Shown one piece after another: positions 1,254-23,897 of a DNA stretch of 64,000 bases. This DNA is from Ignavibacteriaceae bacterium (GTDB taxonomy: Bacteria; Bacteroidota; Ignavibacteria; Ignavibacteriales; Ignavibacteriaceae): the NCBI GenBank assembly GCA_008933765.1, contig WBUK01000011.1, positions 62,001 through 126,000 of the forward strand, given 5' to 3'. Within the stretch, counting starts at the first letter, position 1; the number at the start of each line of letters is the position of its first letter. The notes beneath the pieces are model-generated. The model had not been told where the DNA came from. It ran no database searches and was given only the letters and a program-made list of their open reading frames with translations. The position numbers and the translations under genes are program-made.

Positions 1254-3647
1254 ATGGAAAATCTGCACGCTCTTTTCTCTGATGCTGCATTGCAGGAAGC
1301 GTGGCAAAAGGTAAGAAGTAAAGGTAAAAGCGGTGGTATCGATAATATATCCATCACTGAATTTGAAAGTGACCTCGCTAAAAATCTGAAATCTCTTCGT
1401 GCCGAGGTGATAGCGGGGAATTATGTGCCCGAACCGTACAAATTATTCTTTATTGAGAAAGAAAATAAACCGAAAAAAGAACTCCGGCCTCTCGCCTTGA
1501 TGACAATCCGCGATAAAATAACCCAGCATGTAATCGCACTTCATTATTCTCCTTTATTTGAAAAAAAGTTCATTGATACCAGTTACGCCTACCGTTCCGG
1601 TAAAGGGCATCCAAAAGCCATTGCCCGAGTTGCCGACTTCCTCAACCGTAAATTCACCTTTGTTGCAAACCTTGATATAGATAATTTTTTTGATACAATT
1701 AACCGAAAAACTCTTTTCAATGCCTGCAGCGAATGGTTCAGCCAACCGGAAATATTAAAACTTTTGGAAATGTGGGTGCTGACCGGGTTCGTCCATCACG
1801 GAAAATATATCAAATCCGAAACAGGGATTGCTCAAGGCGGCGTGCTCTCTCCTCTGCTTTCAAACATTTATCTCCACCCTTTGGATCAGATTCTGTTTGA
1901 CAATGCGATTTCAAATGTAAGATATGCCGATAACATTATCCTGTTCGGGAAATCGAAGCAAGAAGTTCTGGCGCGTAAAAAATTTGTCGCCGATTTTATC
2001 AGCAGCCAACTCTCTCTCAGGTTGAATGATTCCGCCGGAGATGCAGTTTCTGTATCTGATGGATTTGATTTTTGCGGAATAAACTTTGCCGAGGGGAAAA
2101 GATCAATCGCACAGGCAAAACTTCTGCAAATTAAAACAAAAATTAAAACCAACATTCAAAAGCATGACATCAAAACCGCGCTTGAACTTCTGAAAGAAAC
2201 TTTTGACGGGCTGAACAGATACTACTCGCCTTATGATACCGAAGAACAACTCGCCGAAATAAGGCAGACTTTCACGAATTCTCTCGCCGCAAAAATTATC
2301 AACTTACTGAACCAAAAAGTTATAAAAAATGAACAGGAAGTGCATGCGTTGCTGAAAAACTTCCCCCAAATAATTTTCGGTGATTCCGGGAACAAACTCT
2401 TCATCAAAAGTATTTCCGGGACAATAAAAGGTATTAAATCAGGCACCCGAACTAATGGTGAAATTTTGGGGAATGAACATCCCTCCGGCAGCATTTCCCC
2501 TCAGCCAAGCGCACCTCCTGCAACCGGGGAAGAAGTAGCAACTTCCGCTCCGTTGACCGCCATAAAAGATCACGAAAAAGAGGCGAGAAGGCTCGTTGAA
2601 AAGAAACGAAAGGTATATTATAACAAGTTCGTGGCGAGCCTCGATCTGATGGTTAGCGGGAACTTTGCTCACATCGGGAAAGCCGGAGGTAAAATTGTAA
2701 TACGAAGAGAAGGGAAAATAGTGGCTGAAACATTTGCAGGCAAACTTACTTCTCTCATTATCAGTTCCAAAGGTGCCACAATATCCTCGGATGCTATGAG
2801 GCTCTGCATGGAAAATAATGTATCCGTCTGTTATTTCGATGAACTCGGGAAGCCTTACGCCGTGGTTTTTCCTGTCGCTTCAGGTGCAAACAGTGTTTCA
2901 ACCGCACAGGCGCGGGCTGCAGGTACGGTTACAGGCAGGCGGATTGTACAAAGTTTAGTCTGGGGTAAAATCTCAAATCAAATCGCACTGATAAGATATT
3001 TAACAAAGAATAAAAATCTGAGCGCGGAGCAAGCGGCAACAATAAGCAAATCACTGGTTGAAATGGAGGCGATTCTAAAAAAGGTTGCCGCACTTCCTGT
3101 TTCAACTTCAGCTGAAAACTACAGAAACATTCTTTTTGGTCACGAGGGAAGTGCGGCGGTTTCTTACTGGTCAGCGCTGAAAATGCTGATTCCGCCGGGT
3201 TATGGGTTTACAGTTCGTGAGCACCAGAATGCAGCAAATGTGGTGAATCAGATGTTGAATTATGGTTATGGAATTCTTTACAGCAAAGTGCTGGCTGCTG
3301 CAGTCGTCGCAGGTTTGAACCCGAATATTCCCTTTTTGCACGCAGAGGTAAAGGGTAAGCCTGCTTTAACCTTCGATCTGATCGAACCTTTCAGACCCGT
3401 GGTTGTGGATAGAACCGTTCTTTCAATCCTGTCTCGCAGCAGCGGGTTTTCCTCTAAGAGCGGGAAATTGCCCGATGATTTAAGAAAAAAGATTGCCTCC
3501 AAAGTTTTGGCAAGGCTCTATTCCGAAGTGAAATATAAAGGGCATACTATGTCCGTGAACGATATTCTGATCTTAAATTCTAAACAGATTGCCGCAGTGC
3601 TGAAGGAAGAAGAAAAGACTTACAAACCGTATGTTATGAAATGGTAG
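1254..3647 (+). CDS. cas1: Reverse transcriptase-Cas1 fusion (RT-Cas1)
   Basis: This 797-aa fusion joins a group II intron-like reverse transcriptase (residues about 1-340) to Cas1 (about 440-797) through a Ser/Pro/Gly-rich linker (about 390-440). RT motif A is DIDNFFD (141-147), motif B is GIAQGG (191-196), and motif C is YADN (224-227) where YADD is usual. In Cas1 the three metal ligands are visible: Glu631 in GHEG, His696 in FLHAE and Asp708 in the FDLIEPFRP block. RT-Cas1 proteins of type III systems can acquire spacers from RNA. There is no N-terminal Cas6 domain; Cas6 is encoded separately in the csm operon. The start at 1254 follows cas2 by 4 bp. The domain call is sure; RT activity is not, because of the motif C change. 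Confidence 0.95.
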   Translation: MENLHALFSDAALQEAWQKVRSKGKSGGIDNISITEFESDLAKNLKSLRAEVIAGNYVPEPYKLFFIEKENKPKKELRPLALMTIRDKITQHVIALHYSPLFEKKFIDTSYAYRSGKGHPKAIARVADFLNRKFTFVANLDIDNFFDTINRKTLFNACSEWFSQPEILKLLEMWVLTGFVHHGKYIKSETGIAQGGVLSPLLSNIYLHPLDQILFDNAISNVRYADNIILFGKSKQEVLARKKFVADFISSQLSLRLNDSAGDAVSVSDGFDFCGINFAEGKRSIAQAKLLQIKTKIKTNIQKHDIKTALELLKETFDGLNRYYSPYDTEEQLAEIRQTFTNSLAAKIINLLNQKVIKNEQEVHALLKNFPQIIFGDSGNKLFIKSISGTIKGIKSGTRTNGEILGNEHPSGSISPQPSAPPATGEEVATSAPLTAIKDHEKEARRLVEKKRKVYYNKFVASLDLMVSGNFAHIGKAGGKIVIRREGKIVAETFAGKLTSLIISSKGATISSDAMRLCMENNVSVCYFDELGKPYAVVFPVASGANSVSTAQARAAGTVTGRRIVQSLVWGKISNQIALIRYLTKNKNLSAEQAATISKSLVEMEAILKKVAALPVSTSAENYRNILFGHEGSAAVSYWSALKMLIPPGYGFTVREHQNAANVVNQMLNYGYGILYSKVLAAAVVAGLNPNIPFLHAEVKGKPALTFDLIEPFRPVVVDRTVLSILSRSSGFSSKSGKLPDDLRKKIASKVLARLYSEVKYKGHTMSVNDILILNSKQIAAVLKEEEKTYKPYVMKW

Positions 3648-3816: not shown

Positions 3817-4289
3817 CGTTTTCTCGTGAGAAAATTTGACCTTTTCGGGTTTTTCGCGCTAACTCTTTACAGTATAAGGGGTTAAGCCGCTTTTTTTGGA
3901 ACTTTTGAAAAATTTAAAATTTCTCATGAGCACTTTTTGGGGGGTCTTCAAATCGCTCGTGAGAAAATCGGCATTTTTACCCTTCGATTTTGAGCCAAAA
4001 ACGCAACTTTAAAAGGGCGATTTTCTCATGAGCACTTTTTCGACGGGTTTTAAATCGCTCGTGAGAAAATTTTGAGTTTCCCAAATTGTGCGTTTTTGGG
4101 CTGTATTCCAACTTTTTGGGCGTTTTTTACCCATTTTTCGGTACCTTTTTCGCCGATTTGTTGCAAAAAATTTTGTGCTCGTGAGAAAATTTGAGGTTTT
4201 TTCCTATGTTATTTCATTATAATCACTTAAATTGTATAAACCATTTGGGGTTTTTTCTGAAACACGGCTAAGTGATTGTTCCATAAGCT
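3817..4289 (+). promoter_or_regulatory. CRISPR leader of array 1 (473-bp conserved leader, copy 1)
   Basis: The 473 bp directly before the first repeat of array 1 recur with the same length and about 99 percent identity (roughly six substitutions by eye) before arrays 2 and 3, at 19275-19747 and 22337-22809. Position next to the first repeat, plus degenerate repeats at the far ends, marks this as the leader and sets array transcription to the plus strand. It contains six CTCGTGAG or CTCATGAG dyads at about 3824, 3923, 3955, 4024, 4056 and 4177. Near its end an inverted repeat AATCACTTA (4221-4229) / TAAGTGATT (4269-4277) lies just before the first repeat. A TATAAT at 4218-4223 is a possible -10 element, without a good -35. 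Confidence 0.85.
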
Positions 4290-6752
4290 CTTTAGTGGAT
4301 TTGCCTTGACTTAAAAGGATTACGACACCATTCGCCATCAAACCTGTATACTTCCCTATTGGCTTCTTTAGTGGATTTGCCTTGACTTAAAAGGATTACG
4401 ACATTAATCGCAAAGTTTGAACATTTGTTGGTTTTTCTGGCTTTAGTGGATTTGCCTTGACTTAAAAGGATTACGACTCCATCTCCCATTCTTCGGGAGT
4501 GTTGAAGTCTTCGGTTACCGTTTCTTTAGTGGATTTGCCTTGACTTAAAAGGATTACGACAGGGAACTTTTTACTAGTACCCTTATGTAGTGTTCAAAGT
4601 TCTTTAGTGGATTTGCCTTGACTTAAAAGGATTACGACAACCTGCGGTATTAACCGCAAAGATTCAACCTTTACTGGCTTTAGTGGATTTGCCTTGACTT
4701 AAAAGGATTACGACGCGACTTGTGTGCTATATCAAAGCCGCTATGCTGTATGAAACGCTTTAGTGGATTTGCCTTGACTTAAAAGGATTACGACGAACGA
4801 CACAGAGGCGCTGGTTTCCCAGCGCCTTATACTTTAGTGGATTTGCCTTGACTTAAAAGGATTACGACAATATGCATCTACCCAGGTCAGTTTTTACTGA
4901 CACTGGTGTTGTGACTTTAGTGGATTTGCCTTGACTTAAAAGGATTACGACCCTCTTCTTCGTATATTTCATCGATTATATCTACTATGTCTTTAGTGGA
5001 TTTGCCTTGACTTAAAAGGATTACGACATATAAACATCGGACGTGTCGTTTTCTCTCTTTGTTCTTTAGTGGATTTGCCTTGACTTAAAAGGATTACGAC
5101 GTTTGGGTTTGTGGTTGATTATATTGAACCTGCGGTATTAACTTCAGGTCTTTAGTGGATTTGCCTTGACTTAAAAGGATTACGACGAACGGTGACTCAG
5201 AGTACTCATATGGAGTACTGAGTCTTTAGTGGATTTGCCTTGACTTAAAAGGATTACGACAGTTTTGGCGAACTAAGCTTCAGCACTAGCCTTAGCTTGT
5301 CTTTAGTGGATTTGCCTTGACTTAAAAGGATTACGACTTTGACTATAATTTAATTTGTTAACGAAGTCTAACGCTTCGTTAACAGTTTCTTTAGTGGATT
5401 TGCCTTGACTTAAAAGGATTACGACGGATCCCTACCGGCAGGGTAGAATATCAACAGTACTGCTCGCTCCCTTTCGGGACTTTAGTGGATTTGCCTTGAC
5501 TTAAAAGGATTACGACCAATTTCCTCCGCAAGTTGCAATGAGATTGAAGCGGAACTAAAGTAACTTTAGTGGATTTGCCTTGACTTAAAAGGATTACGAC
5601 GCTTCAATCTTTGTTTTGTGTGAATTTTAACGATTCAACGACTTTAGTGGATTTGCCTTGACTTAAAAGGATTACGACACCTGACCAAACGGGTCTTCCT
5701 TTTGCAAGGTTTTCCCGTTCTTGTAGGACTTTAGTGGATTTGCCTTGACTTAAAAGGATTACGACAGTATTCACTCATTTCTAACTCCTTTCGTTTAATT
5801 ATCCTTTAGTGGATTTGCCTTGACTTAAAAGGATTACGACCTCAGCTTTTTCCCGAGCAACATCGAGCGATCCTTTTCTTTAGTGGATTTGCCTTGACTT
5901 AAAAGGATTACGACGAATTGAGCCTGCTGAGCCTGCGGTATAAGTTGCAGGCTCTCCAGCTTTAGTGGATTTGCCTTGACTTAAAAGGATTACGACGTTC
6001 ATATCTTTATGTTCCTCATAACTGAATCTGATAAAACCTGAAACTTTAGTGGATTTGCCTTGACTTAAAAGGATTACGACTTAAGTCTTCACCGTTAGCT
6101 TCCTCTTCTGAGGAAACCAGTCTTTAGTGGATTTGCCTTGACTTAAAAGGATTACGACCCGAATGTAAATGTATGAGTTCTCATACCAATTCCTTTCGAT
6201 TGTTGACTTTAGTGGATTTGCCTTGACTTAAAAGGATTACGACATATTTCGACATTTCTATCAGTTTCCTGTGAGCTATCTGCTCCAGGACTTTTGCTTT
6301 AGTGGATTTGCCTTGACTTAAAAGGATTACGACTGATGGCTGGTTTTGTTGCACCTTTATCCCCTTTTTTAGGGGCTTTAGTGGATTTGCCTTGACTTAA
6401 AAGGATTACGACTCGTTTCCCAGCAGTTTTGTCAATATTTCTGCCAACTGCAAATTCTTTAGTGGATTTGCCTTGACTTAAAAGGATTACGACTTCTCCT
6501 CCGCACTAAGGTTACTTCTTTCGATTAACCCGTGCAGACTTTAGTGGATTTGCCTTGACTTAAAAGGATTACGACATTAGACCAATTAAGATTGTTAGGC
6601 TTACAGCAAACAGCAGCACACCTTTAATGGATTTGCCTTGACTTAAAAGGATTACGACAACCCAATTCCAAGGATTCTACATTTTACTGTAGTCCCTGGC
6701 GAAAGCTCTACAAAACTTTAGTGGATTTGCCTTGACTTAAAAGGATTACGAC
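4290..6752 (+). CRISPR. CRISPR array 1: 31 repeats, 30 spacers
   Basis: The 37-bp repeat begins CTTTAGTGGATTTG and ends AAAAGGATTACGAC. I count 31 copies starting at 4290, 4366, 4441, 4524, 4602 and so on to 6622 and 6716. Repeat 30 (6622) has one change (CTTTAATGG). Spacers are about 36-57 bp. The repeat end ATTACGAC is a plausible 8-nt crRNA 5' handle, as left by Cas6 in type III systems (for example the ATTGCGAC end of a Thermus type III repeat). On the minus strand most spacers read as fragments of genes: spacer 14 (5338-5388) reads TVNEALDFVNKLNYSQ and spacer 27 (6413-6456) reads NLQLAEILTKLLGN. Spacers 2, 5, 11, 17 and 21 encode related peptides. Confidence 0.98.
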
Positions 6753-7169: not shown

Positions 7170-7206
7170 CTTTAGTGGATTTGCCATGACTTAAAAGGAT
7201 TTGAAA
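7170..7206 (+). repeat. Degenerate terminal CRISPR repeat of array 1
   Basis: The first 31 bases match the repeat apart from one change (GCCATGAC for GCCTTGAC), then the end diverges to TTGAAATC. It lies 417 bp after the last intact repeat, with the zinc-ribbon gene between. Degeneration here supports the right side as the old, trailer end. Confidence 0.85.
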
Positions 7207-7577
7207 TCAGGAATTTAGAGGGTGTTTAAGCCGCGGGGATATTTTTGTGCGGTAAAGATTTGAAAGATGAGATTAGTTTAAAAATTTCTTAACCGATTTA
7301 GAACATTCCGGGAAAGAAGACAAAACAGATGGGTTAAGAAAAATTTCGATTCATATTTTTTGGATATTCATCTCCGTCTCAGGATTTTTCCATCCAATCC
7401 ATTACAGTAAGAAGTTCATCAAAAAACTCAGTTCCACCAAGGTGAAAACCCCCTCAGTAAGCCACCCCTCTGTCGTCGTCGCCCCAAAAAACCACAAACA
7501 AGATTTGAAAAACGGACCAAGAAAAAGGGCCTGCCTTTAAGGGCAGGCCTCTGTTGAGCGTTAATAAAAACCGAAAT
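7207..7577. other. Intergenic region with a 10-bp inverted repeat
   Basis: No gene seen. TTTCTTAACC (7285-7294) and GGTTAAGAAA (7332-7341) form a 10-bp inverted repeat with a 37-nt loop. It could end the array transcript or be a binding site; no T-run follows directly. The end of the region holds the terminator of the minus-strand zinc-ribbon gene. Confidence 0.4.
7522..7550 (-). terminator. Rho-independent terminator of the minus-strand zinc-ribbon gene
   Basis: On the minus strand GGCCTGCC and GGCAGGCC form an 8-bp GC-rich stem with a 6-nt loop, followed by CTTTTTCTT. It lies about 30 bp after the stop of the small gene at 7578-7751. Confidence 0.8.
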
Positions 7578-8362: not shown

Positions 8363-9628
8363 ATGTCATCAGCAGCGGCAAAACTTTTCGCAACAAACAA
8401 TTACCCAAACAACGCGAACAACCCAAACAGCCCAAACAACACTTACAAAATCATTAATAACCAAACAAACGGGGAAAAAATGAGCTGGTTAATACCCCTT
8501 ACTCAACTCGATAACGAACAAAAAGGAATTTTGCAGAGCGTCAGAAACTCGCCCGGAAAGAATTTTTGGATAACGGGTTACGCCGGAAGCGGGAAATCGG
8601 TTCTCCTGATTCATATTGCTCTCAATCTGAAAGAGAGAAACCCGAACGCACGCATCGCAATTGTCGGGTTCACCCGTGCATTGGTTGACCAGCTGAACAC
8701 CGGCATCCCGTTCGAACTGAAACAAAGCATAAGTCTGTTTACTGTTTATGGTTTCATGCAGGACTACAGGGAGTGGGATTTCGTTCTTGTGGATGAAGTG
8801 CAGGATTTAAAACACGATTTCTTCGTGAAACTGAGCAGAATCAAAGCGAAAGTTATCGCCGCCGGGGATATGAACCAGTCAATTTATGATAACACCTGCC
8901 CCGAAGCAGATATAATAGAGTATTTGGATTTGGATATCCGCAGGCTGAACATAATCCATCGTCTCAGCCGGAGTGGGCGCCGGGTGGCAGCCCCTTTCTG
9001 CAACGATAAGGCGGGGTTTATGTCCGCTTCACTAAGTTCTGCTGTTGAATTGCGCCCTTCTTTGGTATCGGCAAAAAACAGAACCGAAGAATTGAAGTGG
9101 CTATCGGAAACAGCCGAAGAATACGCCCGGAAAGGGTATCAGACTGCTATACTTCTGCCTACACATGAGATTATTAAGAACTTCATCATCGATTTGTGCA
9201 GAGTAAAAAAAATAAACGCGGGGTTTGTAAAAGAAAAAAGCCCGGTGCAGTTTTATCAGGAATACTATGAAGATATTAATTTCGGGCTTCGGAATGCGGG
9301 GTTGAATTATCGTTATCTGGGCAACGGAGCGGGTGATCTGCGTGAGTTCCGCAACTCAAAACAAGTGTTGGTTATGACCTGGCACAGCTCCAAAGGGCTT
9401 GATTTCGAAGTTACTTTCCTGCCGTTTTTAACGAGTGATGCCACAATTTACGCCGGGAACAAACCCGCAGAAACCCTCTTCTTTGTGGCGCTTACCCGTG
9501 CACGGGAGCAGATGTTCCTTTCTTACAGCAATCTGAAACACCGTTTCCTGGGGATGATCGATTCTTCCGCCATAAACAAAATAAACGCCGCGGCAAAATC
9601 CGGTTCAAACCAAACTTTAGCATTTTAG
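8363..9628 (+). CDS. UvrD-like superfamily 1 helicase
   Basis: This 421-aa protein has Walker A GYAGSGKS (about residues 73-80), a DEVQD Walker B, AGDMNQSIYD (motif III-like), and near the C-terminus TWHSSKGLDFE (motif V) and VALTRAREQM (motif VI). It is short for UvrD/Rep and resembles the compact UvrD_C_2 class. It would unwind or translocate on nucleic acid. It is the first gene of the csm operon, 8 bp before the 474-aa unknown gene, so it may assist CRISPR adaptation or interference; that is inference. The start at 8363 has AAGGA upstream, but residues 1-39 are Asn-rich low complexity, and ATG 8480 (MSWLIPL) could be the true start. Confidence 0.85.
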   Translation: MSSAAAKLFATNNYPNNANNPNSPNNTYKIINNQTNGEKMSWLIPLTQLDNEQKGILQSVRNSPGKNFWITGYAGSGKSVLLIHIALNLKERNPNARIAIVGFTRALVDQLNTGIPFELKQSISLFTVYGFMQDYREWDFVLVDEVQDLKHDFFVKLSRIKAKVIAAGDMNQSIYDNTCPEADIIEYLDLDIRRLNIIHRLSRSGRRVAAPFCNDKAGFMSASLSSAVELRPSLVSAKNRTEELKWLSETAEEYARKGYQTAILLPTHEIIKNFIIDLCRVKKINAGFVKEKSPVQFYQEYYEDINFGLRNAGLNYRYLGNGAGDLREFRNSKQVLVMTWHSSKGLDFEVTFLPFLTSDATIYAGNKPAETLFFVALTRAREQMFLSYSNLKHRFLGMIDSSAINKINAAAKSGSNQTLAF

Positions 9629-9636
9629 GAGAAAAT

Positions 9637-11061
9637 ATGTATTATTTACCTGTAACCGTCTTGGAATTTACGAGCAAATACCGCATGGGGGCAATCAGTG
9701 CGCCGGAAGAATTTCTGATGAAAGAATTGCAGCCCGACGGGTGCTCCGAGCCCCTTCTGGAACATTTCTGCGGATTGTTCGAAGAGGAAGTGGATATTAT
9801 TTTCATCGGGTTCGAAAATTTTTCTTCCGGAGAGGGGAATTGGGCGCAGGTGCTTTCGCATGACATAACCGAGGTTCGTCCCTTATCCGATGGGGCGCGT
9901 GCATCGTTGGCTGCTAAACTGAGTGACTTGTATATCGGCGAGCCTGTTCCCGAAGCCCTTGCAATTAAGGTGCTCGAGTTCAGGAACAAAGAGTTAGCAG
10001 AGCGGGGTGCGGCTTTTTTGCGCGGGGTTTTCAATATTTCCGAAAAAGCTGTCGTATGGGAGTGGGTTGACAGCTGGATGGCTGCCCTTGAGTTGTTCAG
10101 AAGGGATCATCTTTTTACCCCTGAATCGGTCGCTGAGTGTATGATGACTTATGAAAGACGAAAAAGTTTTGAAAGGAGCGACATCGGCTTCTTCGAGGAT
10201 GCCGTAAGCCTTCTGAAGGGGATTTTGGGTGTACCCGAGGACTACAACAACAGGAAAAAATACCCGAACCGGAAGGAAATTGATAAAGCAATTAATCAAC
10301 TGAACGACCTGGCGGTCTTTAGAAACGAACTTATAGCGTCGGAAGCGACCGATATCCGGAATTTCATCTGTTTGGTAAGCAACCATCCGGTGGTAAATGA
10401 GATTAACGGTCAGATTTCCGAAGGAATTGGCGGTGCTCTTAACCCCATTCTGATGATTTTGTTCTATCTGAAGTTCAGGGCAATGATCCGGAACGGATTG
10501 GATGAGTATTTGCAGGAAGATTTCAAACGCACTGCGAGCGACCTGCTCACGGTTGCGCCGGCTGAAGCTTCAACGGCGCTGTATTTAGCCGGGCTGCGCT
10601 TTGGAATCGTTGCTTTTACCCCGATGTTCGGGTTGAAAAACAGGGCGAGTGCGCCGGTGGTGCACACAATGCACACAGACCGTGTTGTGCTTGATGGAGT
10701 GTCGCCATCGCAGGAGGGTGCCCGTCATTCTGAAAAGGCAACCCGCTCGAAAGCCCGGAAAAGCACAAAAAAAGAACCCACTGCTAAACCTGAAGGTAAA
10801 ACGAAAAAAAACCCGCTCGGGAAAGCTGAGTATGATGGAATGAAAGAACCGGTTGCGAAAAACCAATGTGTGGTTGTGGCCCCGGAACCGGAGGTATGGA
10901 AACAGAAGGCGTATTCGGACAGCCTGTTCCCTGATGAAGAACCGGAGGCGCAGAGCAAACCGGAAGATAGCAATCCGCGCAGATCTAAAGCCACATCCGC
11001 GCAAAATCCGAAGAAAAAGGCGGCGGGCACAATCCGGAAGAGGATAAATCAGAATGTCTGA
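9637..11061 (+). CDS. Unknown 474-aa protein of the csm operon
   Basis: I do not recognise this protein. Residues 1-330 look globular and mostly helical, with no catalytic motif I can name. Residues about 350-474 are a low-complexity tail very rich in Lys, Pro, Glu and Ser (KSTKKEP, GKTKKNP, NPKKKAAG), likely disordered and able to bind nucleic acid by charge. It starts 8 bp after the helicase stop, behind AGGAG, and precedes cas10 in the same direction. Co-operonic position makes it a candidate partner of the helicase or of the Csm complex; no sequence motif proves that. Confidence 0.8.
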   Translation: MYYLPVTVLEFTSKYRMGAISAPEEFLMKELQPDGCSEPLLEHFCGLFEEEVDIIFIGFENFSSGEGNWAQVLSHDITEVRPLSDGARASLAAKLSDLYIGEPVPEALAIKVLEFRNKELAERGAAFLRGVFNISEKAVVWEWVDSWMAALELFRRDHLFTPESVAECMMTYERRKSFERSDIGFFEDAVSLLKGILGVPEDYNNRKKYPNRKEIDKAINQLNDLAVFRNELIASEATDIRNFICLVSNHPVVNEINGQISEGIGGALNPILMILFYLKFRAMIRNGLDEYLQEDFKRTASDLLTVAPAEASTALYLAGLRFGIVAFTPMFGLKNRASAPVVHTMHTDRVVLDGVSPSQEGARHSEKATRSKARKSTKKEPTAKPEGKTKKNPLGKAEYDGMKEPVAKNQCVVVAPEPEVWKQKAYSDSLFPDEEPEAQSKPEDSNPRRSKATSAQNPKKKAAGTIRKRINQNV

Positions 11062-11281
11062 AAAAAATATTCGAAGTTTTATGAAAACAGTGTTTGATTT
11101 TTCAAAAAAATGTAGTAATATGTACCCTGAATTTCGAAGATTTTTAACAAGGGGGTACTCCTGCAGCCTCCTCAACAATACACACAATTTTTTGATTCAT
11201 CAAGCAAGCGTAAAAGCCGGGTTTACATCCGGTAACTACGGATATTTTTACTTCGGGAGCATAAATGGGAAAAAGCAATAA
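11054..11281 (+). CDS. Possible 75-aa ORF bridging the gap before cas10
   Basis: This ORF overlaps the end of the 474-aa gene by 8 bp and the start of cas10 by 17 bp, filling the only large gap in the operon. A GAGG stands about 12 bp before its ATG. The protein (MSEKNIRSF...) has no motif I recognise. The overlap pattern fits a translationally coupled small gene, but a chance ORF in a noncoding gap is at least as likely. Confidence 0.22.
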   Translation: MSEKNIRSFMKTVFDFSKKCSNMYPEFRRFLTRGYSCSLLNNTHNFLIHQASVKAGFTSGNYGYFYFGSINGKKQ

Positions 11282-13673
11282 ATATTCAGTTGCCTTAGCC
11301 GCACTTCTAAGCGATATTGGAAAAAGTAACCTGAAGCCGGCCGCCGGCGTTCAAAACACAGTGGAAGAGGCGATGGCATTTTTTGACGCGGCTTTCAACG
11401 GACAAAGCAAGGTGATTGCCTTAAGGGATGAAATCAGGCAACTTCTTGAAAACAAGGAAAACCCGATACTAAGGCTTACCGCTAATGCAAGCGAACACGA
11501 AGCCGGTGCCCGGGGTAACGACCGCAAGGTTCAAAGCAAGCCGCTGTTTTCCGTCCTTTCATTGGTTGAAACGGGGCGACCGTTGCCGAAAGGTGAGAGC
11601 TATTACCTCCCCGGCACTTCAAGTATTACAGATTGTTACCCCCGATCCGCCGGTTTACCAACAGTGGATGAACTGCAGGCTGCATCTGACAGTGTTTACC
11701 AAAATCTGCTGAACGACATCCACTCCATTCAGGATTCAGAGCCGGAGCAATTGATTGAAACACTGCTGTTTCTCTTCGAAAAGCACCTTTCTTACACACC
11801 TTCCGCCCGCTATCTGAGCAAACCGGATATTTCGCTGTTCGATCACCTTAAATCGACCGCAGCGCTTGCGGCATGCTACAACGAGACGGATAACGAAGAA
11901 AAACCATTTTTAATTGTGGCGGCGGATGTAAGCGGAATTCAAAATTTCATCTATTCGGAAACTAACCCGATCGAAAATATTCAGAAGGGGAGATCTAAGC
12001 AGTTCCGCGGAAAATCTTTCTATCTCTCGTTGCTTACCGATACTTTCAGCAGCTATCTGTTGCGCGAGGCGGGGGTTTCTTCAGCTAACCTGCTGATTAA
12101 CGGCGGCGGGCACTTCATTTTGGTCCTCCCGAACAGCGGGAATATTCGTAAAAAGATGGATGAAGCGAGAAAGAAGATTCAGACCTGGTTCTACAAAACC
12201 TACCGCGGCGAACTTAACCTGATTTTGGAAACCCTTGAAGTTGATGAAGAGCTTTACCAAAACTTCCCGAAATGGCACGGAAAGATCGCCAACAAACTTA
12301 CTGCCGCAAAAAAACAGAGAAGTATTCAGTTTCTGCCCGATATTTTTAAACTTAACCTTGATACTGCCCCGGTACAATATATTGCAAGCCCCAACAAAGA
12401 AGATGAAGACAGAGAGGATTGGGAGCGCCTGAATGGTTACGAGAAATTCCTTTACAGCCTCACTGTTATGTTCCAGGAGATCGGCGCTGTTATTCCGAAA
12501 GCCAAATTTATTTTGCGGAAAGATACACCGGCTGACAGAAAACCGGCGTACAACCGAAACCAAAGCTGTGCGGAAATTGCTTTCCCCGCCTTTGGGATTA
12601 CATGGCTGATCGCTTCATCGGTGAAAGATGTGAACAAGTGGTTGGAAAATAACCCCGGCGGCAACACTTCGGTTTACTCCGTTAATTCCTTTGAGCTGAC
12701 CGGCGGTCTGAATGTCGCCGAAGAAGAAGCCGCGCGGATGGCGTTCGGCACGAAACTTATCGGGAAATATGCGCCCGCAGTTCAGGGAGGTGACTCCGTG
12801 CTCGAGTTCCCCGCACTTGCCGAGCTTAACACCGAAGGTGAAAAGAAATTGGGCTATCCGCTCCTCGCAGTCCTTAGGATGGATGTTGATAACTTAGGCG
12901 CCGTTTTCAGTTTTGGGCTTGAAAGAGAAAATGACAGCGAGAGTATCCGCTCGCTTTCAAGAACCGTGAACCTTTCCCGTCTGTTGAACCTCTTTTTTAC
13001 CGGTTATATCAATCAACTTGCCGAAAAACGGAAAATTTACATCACTTACTCCGGTGGCGACGATCTTTTTGTGGTCGGCTCCTGGATTAACGCCGTTGAG
13101 TTTGCCTTTGAAGTCCGCGAGGCGTTCAATAAGTTTTCCGGAGGCAACTCTAACCTCTCTGTTTCCGCAGGAATGTACCTCTGCAAGGAAAACTATCCGA
13201 TCCATAAAGCGGCGGCGCACGCCGGAAGTGCGGAAACGAGTGCAAAAAATTCATCACCCGACAAGGACAGTATTTCCCTCTTTGGGAAAGAAATGAAGTG
13301 GAGCCGCGCTAAGGAACTGCTGAATTACGGGAAGGCTATCGACTCGTTGGTTGAAACTAATAATGAAGACGAGAAGATTTCGGCGAGCTATGTCCATTTT
13401 CTGCTAAGCCAAACTTCTAAAATGTTGAATGATGATAAAAAGATCGACCTTGAAAAATATTTCAAAGGAATGTTTAAAATTAAATATTCGTTAGCGCGCA
13501 AGCCGAGAAATATCGATTACAAAGCAATACAGGAAGACAGCAACAAAACAAAACCGAACAAGAAAGTTGAGTTGTTCGGCCGCCTGATTAACAGCGAAAA
13601 AAGCACCGAATTAATTCAGGATTTTGTCGTGCCCGCTTCCTATGTAATTTTTAAAAACAGAACCACCAAATAA
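11265..13673 (+). CDS. cas10: Cas10/Csm1, type III-A, HD motif degenerate
   Basis: Cas10 is the large subunit of the Csm complex. The palm domain that makes cyclic oligoadenylate carries an intact GGDD at residues 597-600 (YSGGDDLFVVG), preceded by MDVDNLGAVF; an earlier palm has DVSGIQNFIY at about residue 225. The N-terminus ALAALLSDIGK (10-20) aligns with the HD signature LLHDIGK of Csm1, but His is replaced by Ser, so DNA cleavage by the HD site is doubtful. The N-terminal HD region also looks short. Start at 11265 has GGGAG upstream. The next gene, csm2, follows after 12 bp with a strong AAAGGAGG. Presence of csm2 fixes the subtype as III-A. Confidence 0.95.
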   Translation: MGKSNKYSVALAALLSDIGKSNLKPAAGVQNTVEEAMAFFDAAFNGQSKVIALRDEIRQLLENKENPILRLTANASEHEAGARGNDRKVQSKPLFSVLSLVETGRPLPKGESYYLPGTSSITDCYPRSAGLPTVDELQAASDSVYQNLLNDIHSIQDSEPEQLIETLLFLFEKHLSYTPSARYLSKPDISLFDHLKSTAALAACYNETDNEEKPFLIVAADVSGIQNFIYSETNPIENIQKGRSKQFRGKSFYLSLLTDTFSSYLLREAGVSSANLLINGGGHFILVLPNSGNIRKKMDEARKKIQTWFYKTYRGELNLILETLEVDEELYQNFPKWHGKIANKLTAAKKQRSIQFLPDIFKLNLDTAPVQYIASPNKEDEDREDWERLNGYEKFLYSLTVMFQEIGAVIPKAKFILRKDTPADRKPAYNRNQSCAEIAFPAFGITWLIASSVKDVNKWLENNPGGNTSVYSVNSFELTGGLNVAEEEAARMAFGTKLIGKYAPAVQGGDSVLEFPALAELNTEGEKKLGYPLLAVLRMDVDNLGAVFSFGLERENDSESIRSLSRTVNLSRLLNLFFTGYINQLAEKRKIYITYSGGDDLFVVGSWINAVEFAFEVREAFNKFSGGNSNLSVSAGMYLCKENYPIHKAAAHAGSAETSAKNSSPDKDSISLFGKEMKWSRAKELLNYGKAIDSLVETNNEDEKISASYVHFLLSQTSKMLNDDKKIDLEKYFKGMFKIKYSLARKPRNIDYKAIQEDSNKTKPNKKVELFGRLINSEKSTELIQDFVVPASYVIFKNRTTK

Positions 13674-13685
13674 AAGGAGGAGATT

Positions 13686-14090
13686 ATGCCTTTAGAAAAT
13701 CTCAACGGAGTTAAAGACCTTTCGGAAATCAAACCGGAAGATATTGACAGTATTGGCAAAACGATGGGCAAAAGTTTAGTTGACCGTGAAGTGAAAACTA
13801 ACCAGCTCAGGAATTTTTATTCTTCCATCATCTCAATAAGAACAAAATTAAGAAAAGAGAAGAGTGTAACTCCGGCGATAGAGAGGGAATTAGTGCTCTT
13901 GAAGCCTAAGCTTGCATACGCAACCGGCAGAAACAAAAAGGTTATGGAATTATACAATTTAATGCAGGACGGTATCGGTGCTACCGTATCCGAAAATGTG
14001 AGCGATAAGAAAGCAGCGCTTGCTAACCTTATTTCAATTACGGAAGCGATTGTTGCCTACCATAAATTTCACGGCGGAAAAGATAAATAA
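13686..14090 (+). CDS. csm2: Csm2, small subunit of the Csm complex
   Basis: This 134-aa helical protein carries the Csm2 pattern VKTNQLRNFYSSI near residue 37, LLKPKLAYATGR in the middle, and a C-terminal EAIVAYHKFHGG. Csm2 is the small subunit that lines the crRNA-target duplex in type III-A complexes. It has an excellent ribosome site (AAAGGAGG) and sits 12 bp after cas10 and 11 bp before csm3. Its presence separates III-A from III-B and III-D. Confidence 0.93.
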   Translation: MPLENLNGVKDLSEIKPEDIDSIGKTMGKSLVDREVKTNQLRNFYSSIISIRTKLRKEKSVTPAIERELVLLKPKLAYATGRNKKVMELYNLMQDGIGATVSENVSDKKAALANLISITEAIVAYHKFHGGKDK

Positions 14091-14101
14091 AGGAGTTAAA
14101 G

Positions 14102-14848
14102 ATGTCATTCGAATTTAAAAAAAATATTATAATCAGAGGCCGGATCGAGACCCTCACAGGTATGCACATCGGCGGAAGTAAAGAAAAACTTGAAATTGGC
14201 GGTGTGGATAGCCCCGTTATCCGCGATCCATTCACTCAGCAGCCTTATATTCCCGGCTCTTCTCTGAAAGGAAAAATGAGGATGCTCATTGAATTTGCAC
14301 ACGGGAAAGTTGTAAATTCCGGAAAACCTTATGAATCAGACGATCCGGATGATGAAATCTGCCGTGTTTTTGGAAACTTCGTTAAAGGCACTAAGGGGGG
14401 GCCCACAAGGCTAACAGTACGGGATGCGTATCCAACGAAAGAAACGATTGAAATGTGGGAAGGGATGGAATCTGAACTTCTTTTCACCGAGCTGAAACCT
14501 GAAAACTCGATAGACCGGTTGACCTCCGAAGCTAACCCCCGTTTTCTTGAAAGAGTGGTTAAAGGGTCAATGTTTAACTTTGAGATGATCTACAGTGTTT
14601 ACGACGATAAAGATGAAGAGAATCTTAAAATCGTTTATCAGGCAATGCGGCTGCTTGAGCACTCCGGTATCGGTGGGAGTATCTCAAGGGGATACGGAAG
14701 AATTGCCTTTTATCTTGCTGACCCCGTTGAGGTGGCTGCCGAAGATTATATAACCGGAAATGAGAGATACAAAGAGAGCACTGCCTCTGTTTCCGATGAG
14801 GATACTTCGAAGCTTAAAACATTAGACAATTTAGAACCGGTGAATTAA
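14102..14848 (+). CDS. csm3: Csm3, RNase backbone subunit
   Basis: This 248-aa RAMP protein forms the helical backbone of the Csm complex and cuts target RNA every 6 nt. The N-terminal block GMHIGGS is followed by GGVDSPVIRDP; Asp36 in it corresponds to the catalytic Asp of Csm3. PYIPGSSLKGKMR (48-60) is the RAMP Gly-rich motif, and a second Gly-rich loop (SGIGGSISRGYGRI) lies near residue 195. RNA cleavage should therefore be intact. AAAGGAG precedes the start. Tight spacing on both sides (11 and 19 bp) shows operon structure. Confidence 0.96.
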   Translation: MSFEFKKNIIIRGRIETLTGMHIGGSKEKLEIGGVDSPVIRDPFTQQPYIPGSSLKGKMRMLIEFAHGKVVNSGKPYESDDPDDEICRVFGNFVKGTKGGPTRLTVRDAYPTKETIEMWEGMESELLFTELKPENSIDRLTSEANPRFLERVVKGSMFNFEMIYSVYDDKDEENLKIVYQAMRLLEHSGIGGSISRGYGRIAFYLADPVEVAAEDYITGNERYKESTASVSDEDTSKLKTLDNLEPVN

Positions 14849-14867
14849 GACCAATAAAAGGGATGAA

Positions 14868-15941
14868 ATGAAAATTGTTTATTTAACTCCGAAATCTTCA
14901 TTCCGGGAGACAATGAGGTCAGACAGTCTCTGGGGCTTAATCTGCTGGGGGGTGCGAACCCTTTGGTCGGAGGAAGAGCTTTTGGCTATGATCGAGGGCT
15001 ACAATTCCGGTGCCCCGTTGAAGGTCTCTTCCGCTTTTAAGTGGATAAATACCGACAGCGGCCTCCGGCGGTTTTTCCCTAAGCCGTTGTTGCCTCCGTT
15101 TGACCTTTCAGATTTACTCGAAGGGAAGCCCAAAAGCGAAAAAATGAAGATTTTCAGCAATCTGAAGAAGTGGCGAAGCCAAAAAACCGTTTCCGAAGAA
15201 GTTTTCTTTAGGTTCATTACCGGTGATTTGGATGAAAAAGGCTTCTTTACCGATGAGGCTTTGTGGGCTTCTGACTCAATGAAAAAAAGATTCAGGGTTG
15301 AGACCACCATTCACAACTCGATAAACAGACTGACTGCTTCCGCGAACAAACCGGTTGACCCCGAGAACCCTGAGCAGAGTGAAAAAGGCTTTGGCGGTCC
15401 GTTTACGCGGGAAAATGTTTTTGCCAAAGACGCCGGGCTTTTCTTCCTGATTGATGGTGAGCCTGAGTATTTGGAAAAAGCTGAGGCTGCCCTTAGGCTC
15501 TATTCTCATATAGGGTTTATGGGAGATTCTTCCGTGGGTAAGAGCCACTTCGATATAAGATTTGAAGACTTCGCAGCACCATCCGTTGATAACCCTTCCG
15601 GGTTTGTTACGCTTTCACTATTTATCCCGACTGAAGAAGAAGCGGCGTTCTTTTCAGCCGGCGTAAACAACGCAAACGAAGAGGGAAATAACAACGGAGA
15701 ACCGGGCGCTGCCCCTTATTATGAACTTGAAACACGGAAAGGGAAGGTTAGCTCGGCTCACTTGAGTACTGAAGATTTTTGGAAAAAATCGGTCCTCGCT
15801 TTTCGTGAAGGCTCTTATTTCCCCGGTATGAAAAAAAATAATTACGGAACACTGAAAGAAGTAAAACAAACCGGGGGGGAAAGCGGGTTCACCGTATATC
15901 AGTCCGGTATTGCATTTAATCTTCCTGCGAGGTTGAAATGA
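14868..15941 (+). CDS. csm4: Csm4, crRNA 5'-handle-binding RAMP
   Basis: This 357-aa protein shows the Csm4 N-terminal pattern MRSDSLWGLICWGVR (LRSDtLFGal type) and KVSSAFKW, and C-terminal RAMP-like segments. Csm4 caps the complex next to Cas10 and holds the 5' tag of the crRNA. Its stop overlaps the csm5 start by 4 bp (ATGA), a coupled arrangement typical of this gene pair. Confidence 0.9.
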   Translation: MKIVYLTPKSSFRETMRSDSLWGLICWGVRTLWSEEELLAMIEGYNSGAPLKVSSAFKWINTDSGLRRFFPKPLLPPFDLSDLLEGKPKSEKMKIFSNLKKWRSQKTVSEEVFFRFITGDLDEKGFFTDEALWASDSMKKRFRVETTIHNSINRLTASANKPVDPENPEQSEKGFGGPFTRENVFAKDAGLFFLIDGEPEYLEKAEAALRLYSHIGFMGDSSVGKSHFDIRFEDFAAPSVDNPSGFVTLSLFIPTEEEAAFFSAGVNNANEEGNNNGEPGAAPYYELETRKGKVSSAHLSTEDFWKKSVLAFREGSYFPGMKKNNYGTLKEVKQTGGESGFTVYQSGIAFNLPARLK

Positions 15942-17632
15942 AATTAAGAATTAAAACTATCACCCCGCTGCACATCTCTACGGGGAAAGATTTGGAAACG
16001 CTCGATTATGTGTATCAGGATAACTTTATCTACAGGCTGCACTTGGAGAAATCGTTGGAGATTCTGGCAACCGAAGACCCCGGCGTTTACTCTAAGTTTT
16101 CCGACTGGGTGGATGCCAAGATCGGAAGCCTTCTGAAAACTGATGACAACAAGGAGCAGAGCGAAACCCGGAAAACCACAAACCTGAAAGAGTTTTGCAG
16201 GGTTAAATACCCGCAATCCGGCATTTTTTCCAAAGTGCTGGAGGGGGCAACACTTTACAAAGCGTTTGCACCTTTTGGGCGCGGCGAAAGTTCCCTCCTG
16301 AATGAACAGATTAAAGACTCTGCTAACAAACCCTACATCCCCGGTTCAAGCATTAAGGGGGCGATTAAAACTGCGCTTGCCGCAAATGCCTGGAGTAAGT
16401 TGAGCGATGGTGAAAGAAAGAAAGTTTTGGGTGATGAAAAAACCCGTGTGCTAAAAAAGAACAATCGTATAGAATATTCAGACGAACCTTTAATGAATCA
16501 TCTGTTTACCTGCAGGGTCGTTCCTGATGAACAAAGGTGGAGAAACAAAAAAATATTTTTTGACCCTGCGCGCTTCAGCATAATGAGGTTTTTTCACTTT
16601 TCCGACGCACACATCGTTGAACCTTTCGGGGAAAACGCTCTCGAGGTACTGCCCGTTTATCTCTATCTGAAAGGGAAAGAACCGCAACCGCAAACCAACT
16701 CCCAGGAAGTTATCCCCAAAGGGGTGGTATTTGAGTTTGATTTCAGAGTTGATGTTGAAGGGCTGTACACCGCCTTCAGGGAAAGTAAACATCCAAAAGG
16801 GATGTGGCGCGATTTAAGCACCAAAATTGAACGGCTGTTTGATGTAAAGTTGGATAATGTGGCGAAAGGTGATTACGAGAAACTCCTTACCGACGGGCTT
16901 TTTTCCGTACTTGGTGGGGTTCAGGCGGTTGAAAAGTTTAATCAGGACCGGGCTTGGCTGAGAGAGTTTCTTAAAATATCCGGAGGCGGAGGAATTGCGC
17001 CTGATGCGGCTGAAAGGCTCAATGCGTTTATCGGCGACAGAGTCTCCGAGGTAGGCGGGACTATTAAGATCGGATGGGGTTCCGGGTTTACCTCGACTAC
17101 CATTTTTAACCCTTTGAAGACCTCTGACAAAGAGTTTGTCAGGGAGATGTTTAAAGAACTCGGGATTGGGGTCAGAAAAAGTAAAGGAGAGAAAAAGAAT
17201 GCGCCTGTTGACTTAGACAATTTCCCGAAATCAAAAAGGATGACTGCGCAGTCGATAACTTCTCCTGAATTTTTCCTCGGCTGGGTTCAGATTGCACCGG
17301 ATTTGAAGCCGGAGCCTTTTGTGAGGAAAAAGATTGAAATGGTTACCGAGAAAGAACCTCTTACAAGAGAAGAATGGATAAAAGAACTTCAGAAAGAAAA
17401 CGAGAGCCAAAAGCCGAAGAACAATCAGGCGGTAAGGATGAATGCTGTCGTTCTAAGGTCTGAACCGCCTTTTATTTTTGTGCAACTTCTGCACAGTGAA
17501 TTTAATGCTGAGTATAGAGTTAAATACCCCGCCGGTTTACAGGCAGATACTTTGGTAACGGTGCAGGTTACTTTTCAGAAAGGGAAAATTGTTAATCAAC
17601 CGACACTTCCAAAACCGTTAAATCAGCCATAG
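15938..17632 (+). CDS. csm5: Csm5, with extended C-terminus
   Basis: Csm5 is the RAMP subunit at the 3' end of the crRNA. Visible motifs are ITPLHISTG at the N-terminus and PYIPGSSIKGAIKTA (about residues 131-145), plus a Gly-rich loop KIGWGSGFTS near residue 381. At 564 aa it is long for the family (usually about 350-420). The extra C-terminal part (about 410-564) has a charged helix and then a beta-rich segment (MNAVVLRSEPPFIFVQL ... VTVQVTFQKG) that could be a small OB-like domain. It overlaps csm4 by 4 bp and is 64 bp from cas6. Confidence 0.9.
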   Translation: MKLRIKTITPLHISTGKDLETLDYVYQDNFIYRLHLEKSLEILATEDPGVYSKFSDWVDAKIGSLLKTDDNKEQSETRKTTNLKEFCRVKYPQSGIFSKVLEGATLYKAFAPFGRGESSLLNEQIKDSANKPYIPGSSIKGAIKTALAANAWSKLSDGERKKVLGDEKTRVLKKNNRIEYSDEPLMNHLFTCRVVPDEQRWRNKKIFFDPARFSIMRFFHFSDAHIVEPFGENALEVLPVYLYLKGKEPQPQTNSQEVIPKGVVFEFDFRVDVEGLYTAFRESKHPKGMWRDLSTKIERLFDVKLDNVAKGDYEKLLTDGLFSVLGGVQAVEKFNQDRAWLREFLKISGGGGIAPDAAERLNAFIGDRVSEVGGTIKIGWGSGFTSTTIFNPLKTSDKEFVREMFKELGIGVRKSKGEKKNAPVDLDNFPKSKRMTAQSITSPEFFLGWVQIAPDLKPEPFVRKKIEMVTEKEPLTREEWIKELQKENESQKPKNNQAVRMNAVVLRSEPPFIFVQLLHSEFNAEYRVKYPAGLQADTLVTVQVTFQKGKIVNQPTLPKPLNQP

Positions 17633-17696: not shown

Positions 17697-18653
17697 ATGA
17701 AAATACCGGAACTTGACATTTACTCATTCGAGATAACCCTCGGTATGTTGGGGCGCTTTGAAACCCCAAAATATATGGGTTCTCTCCTTAAGGGTTCTTT
17801 CGCCTGGGCGTTCAGAAATATCGTTTGCGTTACGAAGCAGCCTACATGCGAGGGGTGCATGCTGAAAGATACATGCGCCTACTTCCGGATTTTTGAAACT
17901 GAAATCTCTGCCGGCCATATTCCATACTTAAAAGGGGTGCGCAAAGTACCGCATCCCTTTGTGCTTACGCCGCCACTTAACGGCAAAACCCTCTATGAGC
18001 CGGGCGAAAAGCTGAAAATTCAGCTGCGATTGTTCGGTTCTGCCGTGCAGTTGCTCCAATATTATGTTTTTGTCTTTCAGCAGATCGGAAAGCGCGGCTT
18101 CGGGAGGGCGGATACTTTGTTTGAGGTTTTGGAGTTCAACGCAGTCATAGGGAACGAAGTGGTGCCCGTGATAACTCCGGACGGCAAAACTATGACCGCC
18201 GATCTCCCAACTCTGAGAGTGCCTGCCGCCACTGAGGAGAATTTTATCGGCTTTCAAAGCGTTAATTTAGAGTTCACAACCCCCGTAAGGATTCAGGAGG
18301 CGGGCAAAGTGCTGCTGAAAAAAGACAATGTTACACCCGCCGTTATTCTGAACGGATTGTACAGACGCTATCTGGCACTGGCGGGGCTTTACGGCAACGG
18401 GGGTTTTTTGGATCAAAAACCGGATTTTCCTTATGAAGAGATTGAAGTCTCTTCCAATTCCCTTGCACCGTTCGACTGGGGGAGGTACTCGAATCGTCAG
18501 AAAAACTATTTGGATATGAGCGGTCTGATTGGCAGCATCTCTCTTTCCGGGAATATCCTCCCGGCAATTCCGTGGCTGTTGGCTGGCTCGCGCATAAATA
18601 TGGGCAAAAACACAGCCTACGGTCTGGGGCAATTTCGCGTGGTGCTGAGCTGA
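17697..18653 (+). CDS. cas6: Cas6 crRNA-processing endoribonuclease
   Basis: This 318-aa protein fits the Cas6 family with C-terminal domain PF10040. It has MGSLLKGSFAWAFRN near residue 27, a Cys cluster CEGCMLKDTC (52-61), HPFVLTPP, GKRGFGRAD, and the terminal Gly-rich MGKNTAYGLGQF. Cas6 cleaves the repeat transcript, which here would leave the 8-nt handle AUUACGAC. No His lies in the first 70 residues, so the catalytic base is not obvious. It is the last gene of the operon and is encoded apart from RT-Cas1, unlike Cas6-RT-Cas1 fusions. Confidence 0.9.
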   Translation: MKIPELDIYSFEITLGMLGRFETPKYMGSLLKGSFAWAFRNIVCVTKQPTCEGCMLKDTCAYFRIFETEISAGHIPYLKGVRKVPHPFVLTPPLNGKTLYEPGEKLKIQLRLFGSAVQLLQYYVFVFQQIGKRGFGRADTLFEVLEFNAVIGNEVVPVITPDGKTMTADLPTLRVPAATEENFIGFQSVNLEFTTPVRIQEAGKVLLKKDNVTPAVILNGLYRRYLALAGLYGNGGFLDQKPDFPYEEIEVSSNSLAPFDWGRYSNRQKNYLDMSGLIGSISLSGNILPAIPWLLAGSRINMGKNTAYGLGQFRVVLS

Positions 18654-19747: not shown

Positions 19748-20119
19748 CTTTAGTGGATTTGCCTTGACTTAAAAGGATTACGACTTAGAGATTGCGGCGT
19801 TGCTAAAGTACCGCCGTCTGTCTGTTGGGGCTTCAAGACTTTAGTGGATTTGCCTTGACTTAAAAGGATTACGACATCAGAGATGCTGCCTCTCTGATAC
19901 CCCAGCTTATCCTTTAGTGGATTTGCCTTGACTTAAAAGGATTACGACATTATCAATAGCTTTCGTGTCTATTTTATCAAAGTTATTTTTCCCTTTAGTG
20001 GATTTGCCTTGACTTAAAAGGATTACGACACTTCGGTAAGTTCATCACCCTCTTTGGGGTGATCATCCTTATCGATACACTTCTTTAGTGGATTTGCCTT
20101 GACTTAAAAGGATTACGAC
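19748..20119 (+). CRISPR. CRISPR array 2: 5 repeats, 4 spacers
   Basis: Repeats of the same 37-bp type start at 19748, 19839, 19912, 19993 and 20083; all look intact. Spacers are 54, 36, 44 and 53 bp. Spacer 2 holds ATCAGAGA/TCTCTGAT and spacer 4 holds ATCACCC/GGGTGAT as hairpins. On the minus strand spacer 4 reads KCIDKDDHPKEGDELTEV. The shortness suggests a young or rarely used array. Confidence 0.98.
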
Positions 20120-22809: not shown

Positions 22810-23897
22810 CTTTAGTGGATTTGCCTTGACTTAAAAGGATTACGACCCTTAGGGAGAAAACATACTGATTTTCAGTATCATCCTTTAGTGGATTTGCCTT
22901 GACTTAAAAGGATTACGACCTGATTGAGTTTGATTCCAGTATTTTTCTCATTTGAACCTCAAATTCTTTAGTGGATTTGCCTTGACTTAAAAGGATTACG
23001 ACAAGCGGGTGCACGGGGTGTTCTTTCACCGCCGTAAGGTTTAACACCCTCACTTTAGTGGATTTGCCTTGACTTAAAAGGATTACGACAATTAATATAG
23101 CCTCTACGATCGATCTATACATAGCCTATCCTTCTTTAGTGGATTTGCCTTGACTTAAAAGGATTACGACGTCATCGACCGCAATGGTCGTTTGTGTCTT
23201 TCCGCTCTCGGCTTTAGTGGATTTGCCTTGACTTAAAAGGATTACGACAATGGTGATTCACTGTACTCGTACGGAGCACTTAATGCTCCGCCGGTACCGT
23301 CTTTAGTGGATTTGCCTTGACTTAAAAGGATTACGACCATTAAAACGATATACTTCCCGTCCAGCTTTAGGATCTTTTTGATCCCTACCTTTAGTGGATT
23401 TGCCTTGACTTAAAAGGATTACGACAAATGAGATAGACGCACTTTCTGTCCATCTCTTCACGGCTTTAGTGGATTTGCCTTGACTTAAAAGGATTACGAC
23501 TCGTTTATTAACATTGCCATGCTGTCAATGGTTTGGTAACCACTTTAGTGGATTTGCCTTGACTTAAAAGGATTACGACCCCACAAGGATGGAGCTCCGA
23601 TGAAATTGTTGTTGTCTTTAGTGGATTTGCCTTGACTTAAAAGGATTACGACTCATGGCCCCACAAGGATGGGGCTCTGATGAAATTGTTACTGTTTTTC
23701 TTTAGTGGATTTGCCTTGACTTAAAAGGATTACGACCCCTCTATTCTGGACGTCAGTATCAGGCCTAAGCCTTCGATACTGTTTCTTTAGTGGATTTGCC
23801 TTGACTTAAAAGGATTACGACTTGCTAAAAACTGGGCTATTTCGCCCTTGATTTTCTTTTCTTTAGTGGATTTGCCTTGACTTAAAAGGATTAGAAA
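22810..23897 (+). CRISPR. CRISPR array 3: 14 repeats, 13 spacers
   Basis: Repeats of the same type start at 22810, 22883, 22966, 23053, 23134, 23212, 23301, 23389, 23464, 23543, 23616, 23700, 23785 and 23861. The last one is degenerate at its end (GGATTAGAAATT instead of GGATTACGAC), marking the trailer. Spacers 10 (23580-23615) and 11 (23653-23699) are variants of one target. On the minus strand spacer 4 (23090-23133) has AAGGA plus ATG and reads MYRSIVEAILI, and spacer 5 (23171-23211) reads ESGKTQTTIAVDD, a P-loop-like fragment. Confidence 0.98.

Follow-up and report, generated by a model that had tools for sequence, protein, structure and literature searches.

The sources of spacers in CRISPR arrays linked to reverse transcriptases (RTs) were mostly untraceable in 2017 (PMC5513706), and have been called enigmatic; a single match to a levi-like virus has been described at an RT-associated type III-B locus (PMC7508674), and spacer matches to Obelisks were reported in 2026 (PMC13096302). 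We analyzed a stretch of 64,000 nucleotides from an Ignavibacteriaceae genome (the window, to which all coordinates refer), which contains three CRISPR arrays of a type III-A system whose Cas1 is fused to an RT. The predicted adaptation module has cas2 (965-1249; NCBIfam TIGR01573, E 3e-17) upstream of a 797-aa protein in which RT and Cas1 are fused (1254-3647; Pfam RVT_1 and Cas_Cas1 in one frame). The effector genes csm1/cas10, csm2, csm3, csm4, and csm5 (11265-17632; TIGR02578 with E 1e-136, and Csm2, Csm4, and RAMP matches) give the combination of Cas10/Csm1 with csm2 to csm5 that marks type III-A, and cas6 is found at 17697-18653 (PADLOC Cas6 model, E 2e-76); all of these genes are on the plus strand. 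Upstream of cas2 there is a CARF/Csm6-like protein (40-894), with weak PADLOC matches (best E 3e-9), and the region between array 1 and csm1 (8363-11061) contains a UvrD/SF1-type helicase gene and a gene of 474 aa, for which no family match was found.

The nearest named relative of the RT-Cas1 protein is from a Chlorobiota MAG (64% identity), followed by Ignavibacteria-type MAGs. Motif C of its RT reads YADN and not the canonical YADD, so RT activity is only putative here, which counts against the explanation that we favor below. YADN is common to the RT-Cas1 proteins of the Ignavibacteria group (L010-L013 and L034), all of which are open frames; the more distant RT-Cas1 proteins used as outgroups have YADD, and none of the papers searched names YADN together with RT-Cas1. 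In Cas10/Csm1 (11265-13673) the GGDD motif is intact, the HD dipeptide is absent, and the N-terminus reads LLSDIGK; the protein has probably lost the HD-domain DNase and kept the synthesis of cyclic oligoadenylate, a combination that would suit an RNA target.

Array 1 (4290-6752) contains 31 repeats and 30 spacers, array 2 (19748-20119) contains five repeats and four spacers, and array 3 (22810-23897) contains 13 spacers, a total of 47; the repeat (CTTTAGTGGATTTGCCTTGACTTAAAAGGATTACGAC) and the leader are common to all three. The leader of array 1 (4140-4289, plus strand) has near-identical copies preceding array 2 (to 19747) and array 3 (to 22809), with a mean column identity of 98% over about 160 columns. 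These near-identical leaders, together with the degenerate final repeat of array 3, which marks its trailer end, place transcription of all three arrays on the plus strand. A single, partly degenerate copy of the repeat is also found at 7170-7208, about 420 bp past the end of array 1. Upstream of the leader of array 1, at 3820-4205, a CTCGTGAGAAAATTT motif recurs in several imperfect copies.

It had been proposed from the sequence of array 1 that five of its spacers, read on the minus strand, derive from one diverged gene family; the coordinates and minus-strand peptides of all five proved exact, and four of the five belong together. These are spacer 2 (4403-4440; PTNVQTLRL), spacer 5 (4639-4677; VESLRLIPQV), spacer 11 (5101-5149; LKLIPQVQYNQPQTQ), and spacer 21 (5915-5959; LESLQLIPQAQQAQF), which we call the LIPQ family. 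At the DNA level, spacers 2 and 5 match with 79% identity over 29 nt (E 2e-4), spacers 5 and 11 with E 6e-4, and spacers 11 and 21 with 79% identity over 24 nt (E 0.005; each E-value refers to a single query spacer); the sequence said to be shared by spacers 5 and 11 is indeed there, exactly 16 nt long (AACCTGCGGTATTAAC on the plus strand). When translated, the pairs 5/21, 11/21, and 5/11 score between 30 and 35, with 35 for spacers 5 and 21, where the null models give about 0.2-0.4 pairs at 30 or more across the whole set. Spacer 17 (5601-5641; VESLKF...) was not accepted as a member, because it has no translated pair scoring 27 or more with any of the 47 spacers in the all-against-all comparison, and its likeness is indistinguishable from chance.

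The LIPQ family is one of at least six diverged, same-strand families among the 47 spacers, and the families span arrays 1, 2, and 3. The proposed independent capture of diverged, homologous coding sequences is borne out for spacers 2, 5, 11, and 21 but not for spacer 17, and extends to at least five further families. All of the additional families are read on the minus strand. The highest translated score (54) is that of spacer 12 (5187-5223) and A3_6 (23249-23300), with the motif LS[TA]PYEYSESP, whose codons differ by six synonymous changes and one nonsynonymous change. Spacer 7 (4795-4831) and A3_8 (23426-23463) share [RK]RW..SAS[VI]SF (score 44), and spacer 1 (4327-4365) and A3_7 (23338-23388) share REVYRF (score 37, with a DNA match too). 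Spacer 19 (5766-5803) and spacer 25 (6244-6296) share RK..EMS.Y (score 33), with no match in the all-against-all DNA comparison, and spacer 16 (5517-5563) and A2_1 (19785-19838) share YFS.A.IS (score 31; 78% identity over 23 nt); spacer 27 (6413-6456), judged by eye, probably overlaps the end of this last family. Spacers A3_10 and A3_11 (23580-23699; 89% identity over 36 nt) are neighboring captures of one site, whose frame is uncertain.

Among the 1,081 pairs that the 47 spacers form, nine minus-strand pairs reach a translated score of 30 or more, where 0.17 are expected from shuffled spacers and 0.43 from comparison of the same spacers with 268 spacers of other RT-Cas1 loci. The homologous pairs found at the DNA level are all in the same orientation (seven, and none in opposite orientation), an outcome with a probability of about 2^-7 under random strand choice. 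Since the arrays are transcribed on the plus strand and the families are read on the minus strand, the crRNAs are antisense to the coding strand. Differences between paired codons fall on positions 1, 2, and 3 in the ratio 33/16/41 in the minus frame, a pattern that supports coding sequence with antisense crRNA and is as expected for it, although the frames were picked by best score and the pattern is no proof of them alone. Many of the differences are synonymous, including swaps of Leu and Ser codons that require at least two base changes. An array of a Bacteroidetes RT-Cas1 locus (L018:13086-16295) has three homologous same-strand spacer pairs, and may be a second case.

The number of recurring pairs also gives a rough estimate of the size of the source. 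Simulated sampling yields about 15 pairs from a single 4-kb genome and 1.5 from a 46-kb phage, so that nine pairs among 1,081 would correspond to a source of a few kb; the figure is approximate, since pairs are lost to divergence and gained from hot spots, and one GC-rich control was inflated. This control, a 50-kb scaffold free of repeated 24-mers, still gave eight pairs, an effect of composition; for this reason, we base the significance of the recurrence on nulls matched in composition to the real spacers.

The spacers are also strongly folded. Their mean folding z on the target strand is about -1.6, as compared with -0.16 for host segments (p 1e-8), about 0 for a dsDNA phage, about -0.2 for a scaffold of a faecal phage, about -0.3 for most of the larger arrays of related RT-Cas1 proteins, and -0.1 to -0.4 for phiX174, M13, and phi6. 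Of the viral genomes tested, the leviviruses alone come close to the spacers, with a mean of -0.74 over 54 genomes and a lowest value of -1.5 (L073). Perfect stems of at least 7 bp are found in nine spacers, compared with 0.64 in shuffles. The two strands of the spacers fold almost equally (Wilcoxon p 0.03) and show no strand asymmetry in G-U pairs, so structure alone does not show an RNA source; and since the average levivirus is less folded than the spacers, either a bias at acquisition or an unusual source is needed, and a bias toward stems at acquisition may add to the excess. A fold-back artefact of reverse transcription is an unlikely cause of the hairpins, because the 9-bp perfect stem of spacer 7 lies inside coding sequence that has a homologue (A3_8).

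We searched for the source in host, phage, plasmid, and viral collections. Searches of the host genome and 145 relatives for array 1, and of the host genome and 58 relatives for array 3, yielded no protospacer; the host's own transcripts were rejected as a source, there being no protospacer in its 90%-complete genome. BLASTN with whole arrays as queries against 50,697 annotated phages, and with array 1 against 72,556 plasmids, gave no protospacer and only chance-level matches; a match to a Paenibacillus phage (E 0.03) falls in the leader region of array 3, outside the spacers. Six motifs are absent from the 2.9 million viral contigs of IMG/VR, and a seventh, the loosest, has three matches there, one in a 14.7-kb contig encoding NRKVIEMSKY, which we judged to be chance. 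No hit was obtained by TBLASTN of single or composite spacer peptides against the phage set, which includes at least 1,287 ssRNA phage records. IMG/VR, too, contains levivirus stretches (nearly 600 or more), so that the source either has not been sampled or has diverged too far. Among leviviruses specifically, no nucleotide protospacer was found in 91 genomes or the phage collection, homology of the 91 genomes to the spacers was not above controls, and the spacer peptides, which are short, scored no higher than shuffled controls against profiles of the coat, maturation, and RdRp proteins, of which the coat and maturation proteins are highly divergent. Four likenesses to levivirus motifs were dismissed, since invariant residues are absent, the strand is wrong, or the scores do not exceed those of controls: A1_8 (resembling VPK..KTDR), A1_11 (FGFVVDY in a plus frame, resembling a maturation-protein motif), A1_16 (FSSAS, resembling RdRp motif A), and A1_30 (a plus frame resembling the FRESCG region). 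The common gene that the original prediction expected behind its five spacers was likewise not found, with all protospacer searches negative and motif searches giving at most chance hits.

We consider it probable, by a modest measure, that the three arrays are the RT-Cas1 type III-A memory of repeated encounters with related small (+)ssRNA phages, most likely Leviviricetes-like. Strong local folding (z about -1.6) and a source of about 4 kb, on a recurrence count that is itself rough, are both what Leviviricetes would give. Against this reading stand the missing protospacers, the negative homology tests with leviviruses, and the related RT-Cas1 arrays, in which the hairpin excess is lacking. 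The main possible rival is a hot-spot transcript of an unseen DNA phage: the spacers could come from an unsampled DNA phage or plasmid and be concentrated in one or a few genes with strong transcription, whether because abundant mRNA is what RT-Cas1 samples or because type III immunity is conferred only by antisense spacers. Such a source is rather unlikely in our view, although RT-Cas1 is reported to acquire spacers from RNA and DNA alike (PMC11014452), matches to DNA viruses have been reported for several RT-linked spacers (PMC5513706), phage diversity is mostly unsampled, and uniform antisense orientation is also expected from selection for type III function. The hairpin excess far exceeds that of dsDNA-phage segments, at least six different peptides recur, and the IMG/VR motif scans found no match, though DNA phages are well sampled there.

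The source could also be another small RNA replicon (Obelisk-like, partiti/picobirna-like, or cystovirus-like), since CRISPR spacers that match Obelisks have been reported, including nine from systems assigned to type III (PMC13096302), and other bacterial riboviruses are cited as targets of RT-containing type III systems (PMC10847044). This is improbable: the rod-like genome of an Obelisk-like source should yield mutually complementary spacers, and the 47 spacers include no opposite-strand pairs; a 1-kb source, we infer, should yield many more overlapping pairs than nine; and the single dsRNA phage segment tested is weakly folded locally (-0.34). Quite improbable, too, is an adaptation complex that prefers hairpins whatever the source, which would make structure uninformative on origin and let hot spots mimic a small genome. 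Many spacers here have no hairpin, the homologous pairs 12/A3_6 and 7/A3_8 have their stems in different registers, and a related array of the same YADN RT clade (G006, 59 spacers) has no excess (-0.2); on the other side, levivirus segments are on average less folded than the spacers, and their mean falls to -2.15 when, of four offsets within 60 nt of levivirus sequence, the best is taken.

Under repeated encounters with small RNA phages, RT-Cas1/Cas2 would take up pieces of phage RNA, in many cases hairpins that form locally in the folded genome, and insert them in the orientation that makes the crRNA antisense to the coding strand; Cas6 would trim the crRNAs, and the Csm complex would pair them with viral RNA. 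The same few genes would be recaptured as diverged copies because related, diverged phages attack repeatedly. Repeated attack by related elements was the better of the two alternatives offered by the original prediction, although the nature of these elements we can only infer; the other, preferential capture of a single transcript, is too narrow, because at least six different peptides recur. An RNA phage, whose small genome is itself a transcript, would unite both readings. More tentatively, and with some doubt, we suggest that most of the memory in these arrays comes from one lineage of unseen RNA phages and was written by the RT-Cas1 clade with the YADN active site, and that such arrays can be recognized without a protospacer, by recurring same-strand diverged families together with excess local structure. 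Reported RNA-phage matches of RT-linked arrays are very few; if our explanation is true, these arrays are dense evidence of sustained RNA-phage immunity in nature, relatives of Ignavibacteria are named as a host group of unseen RNA phages, and the spacer peptides are tags for finding these phages in metatranscriptomes.

The type III systems of Marinomonas mediterranea MMB-1 and Arthrospira platensis (III-B in the latter) resemble this locus in having an RT-Cas1 fusion beside a type III effector, and spacers mostly without a traceable source (PMC5513706); unlike them, the system described here is type III-A, comes from the Chlorobiota/Ignavibacteria group, carries the YADN motif, and has recurring diverged families with strong hairpins. 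The RT-associated type III-B system of Ca. Accumulibacter sp. SK-02 is similar in that an RT-linked type III spacer is directed against a levi-like RNA virus (PMC7508674), but the case there is one direct match, whereas here many spacers, with no direct match, provide statistical evidence only. Obelisk-matching spacers likewise target small structured RNA replicons, some of them from type III arrays (PMC13096302); in contrast, the source estimated here is a few kb long, with several peptides and local hairpins, and has left no complementary spacers.
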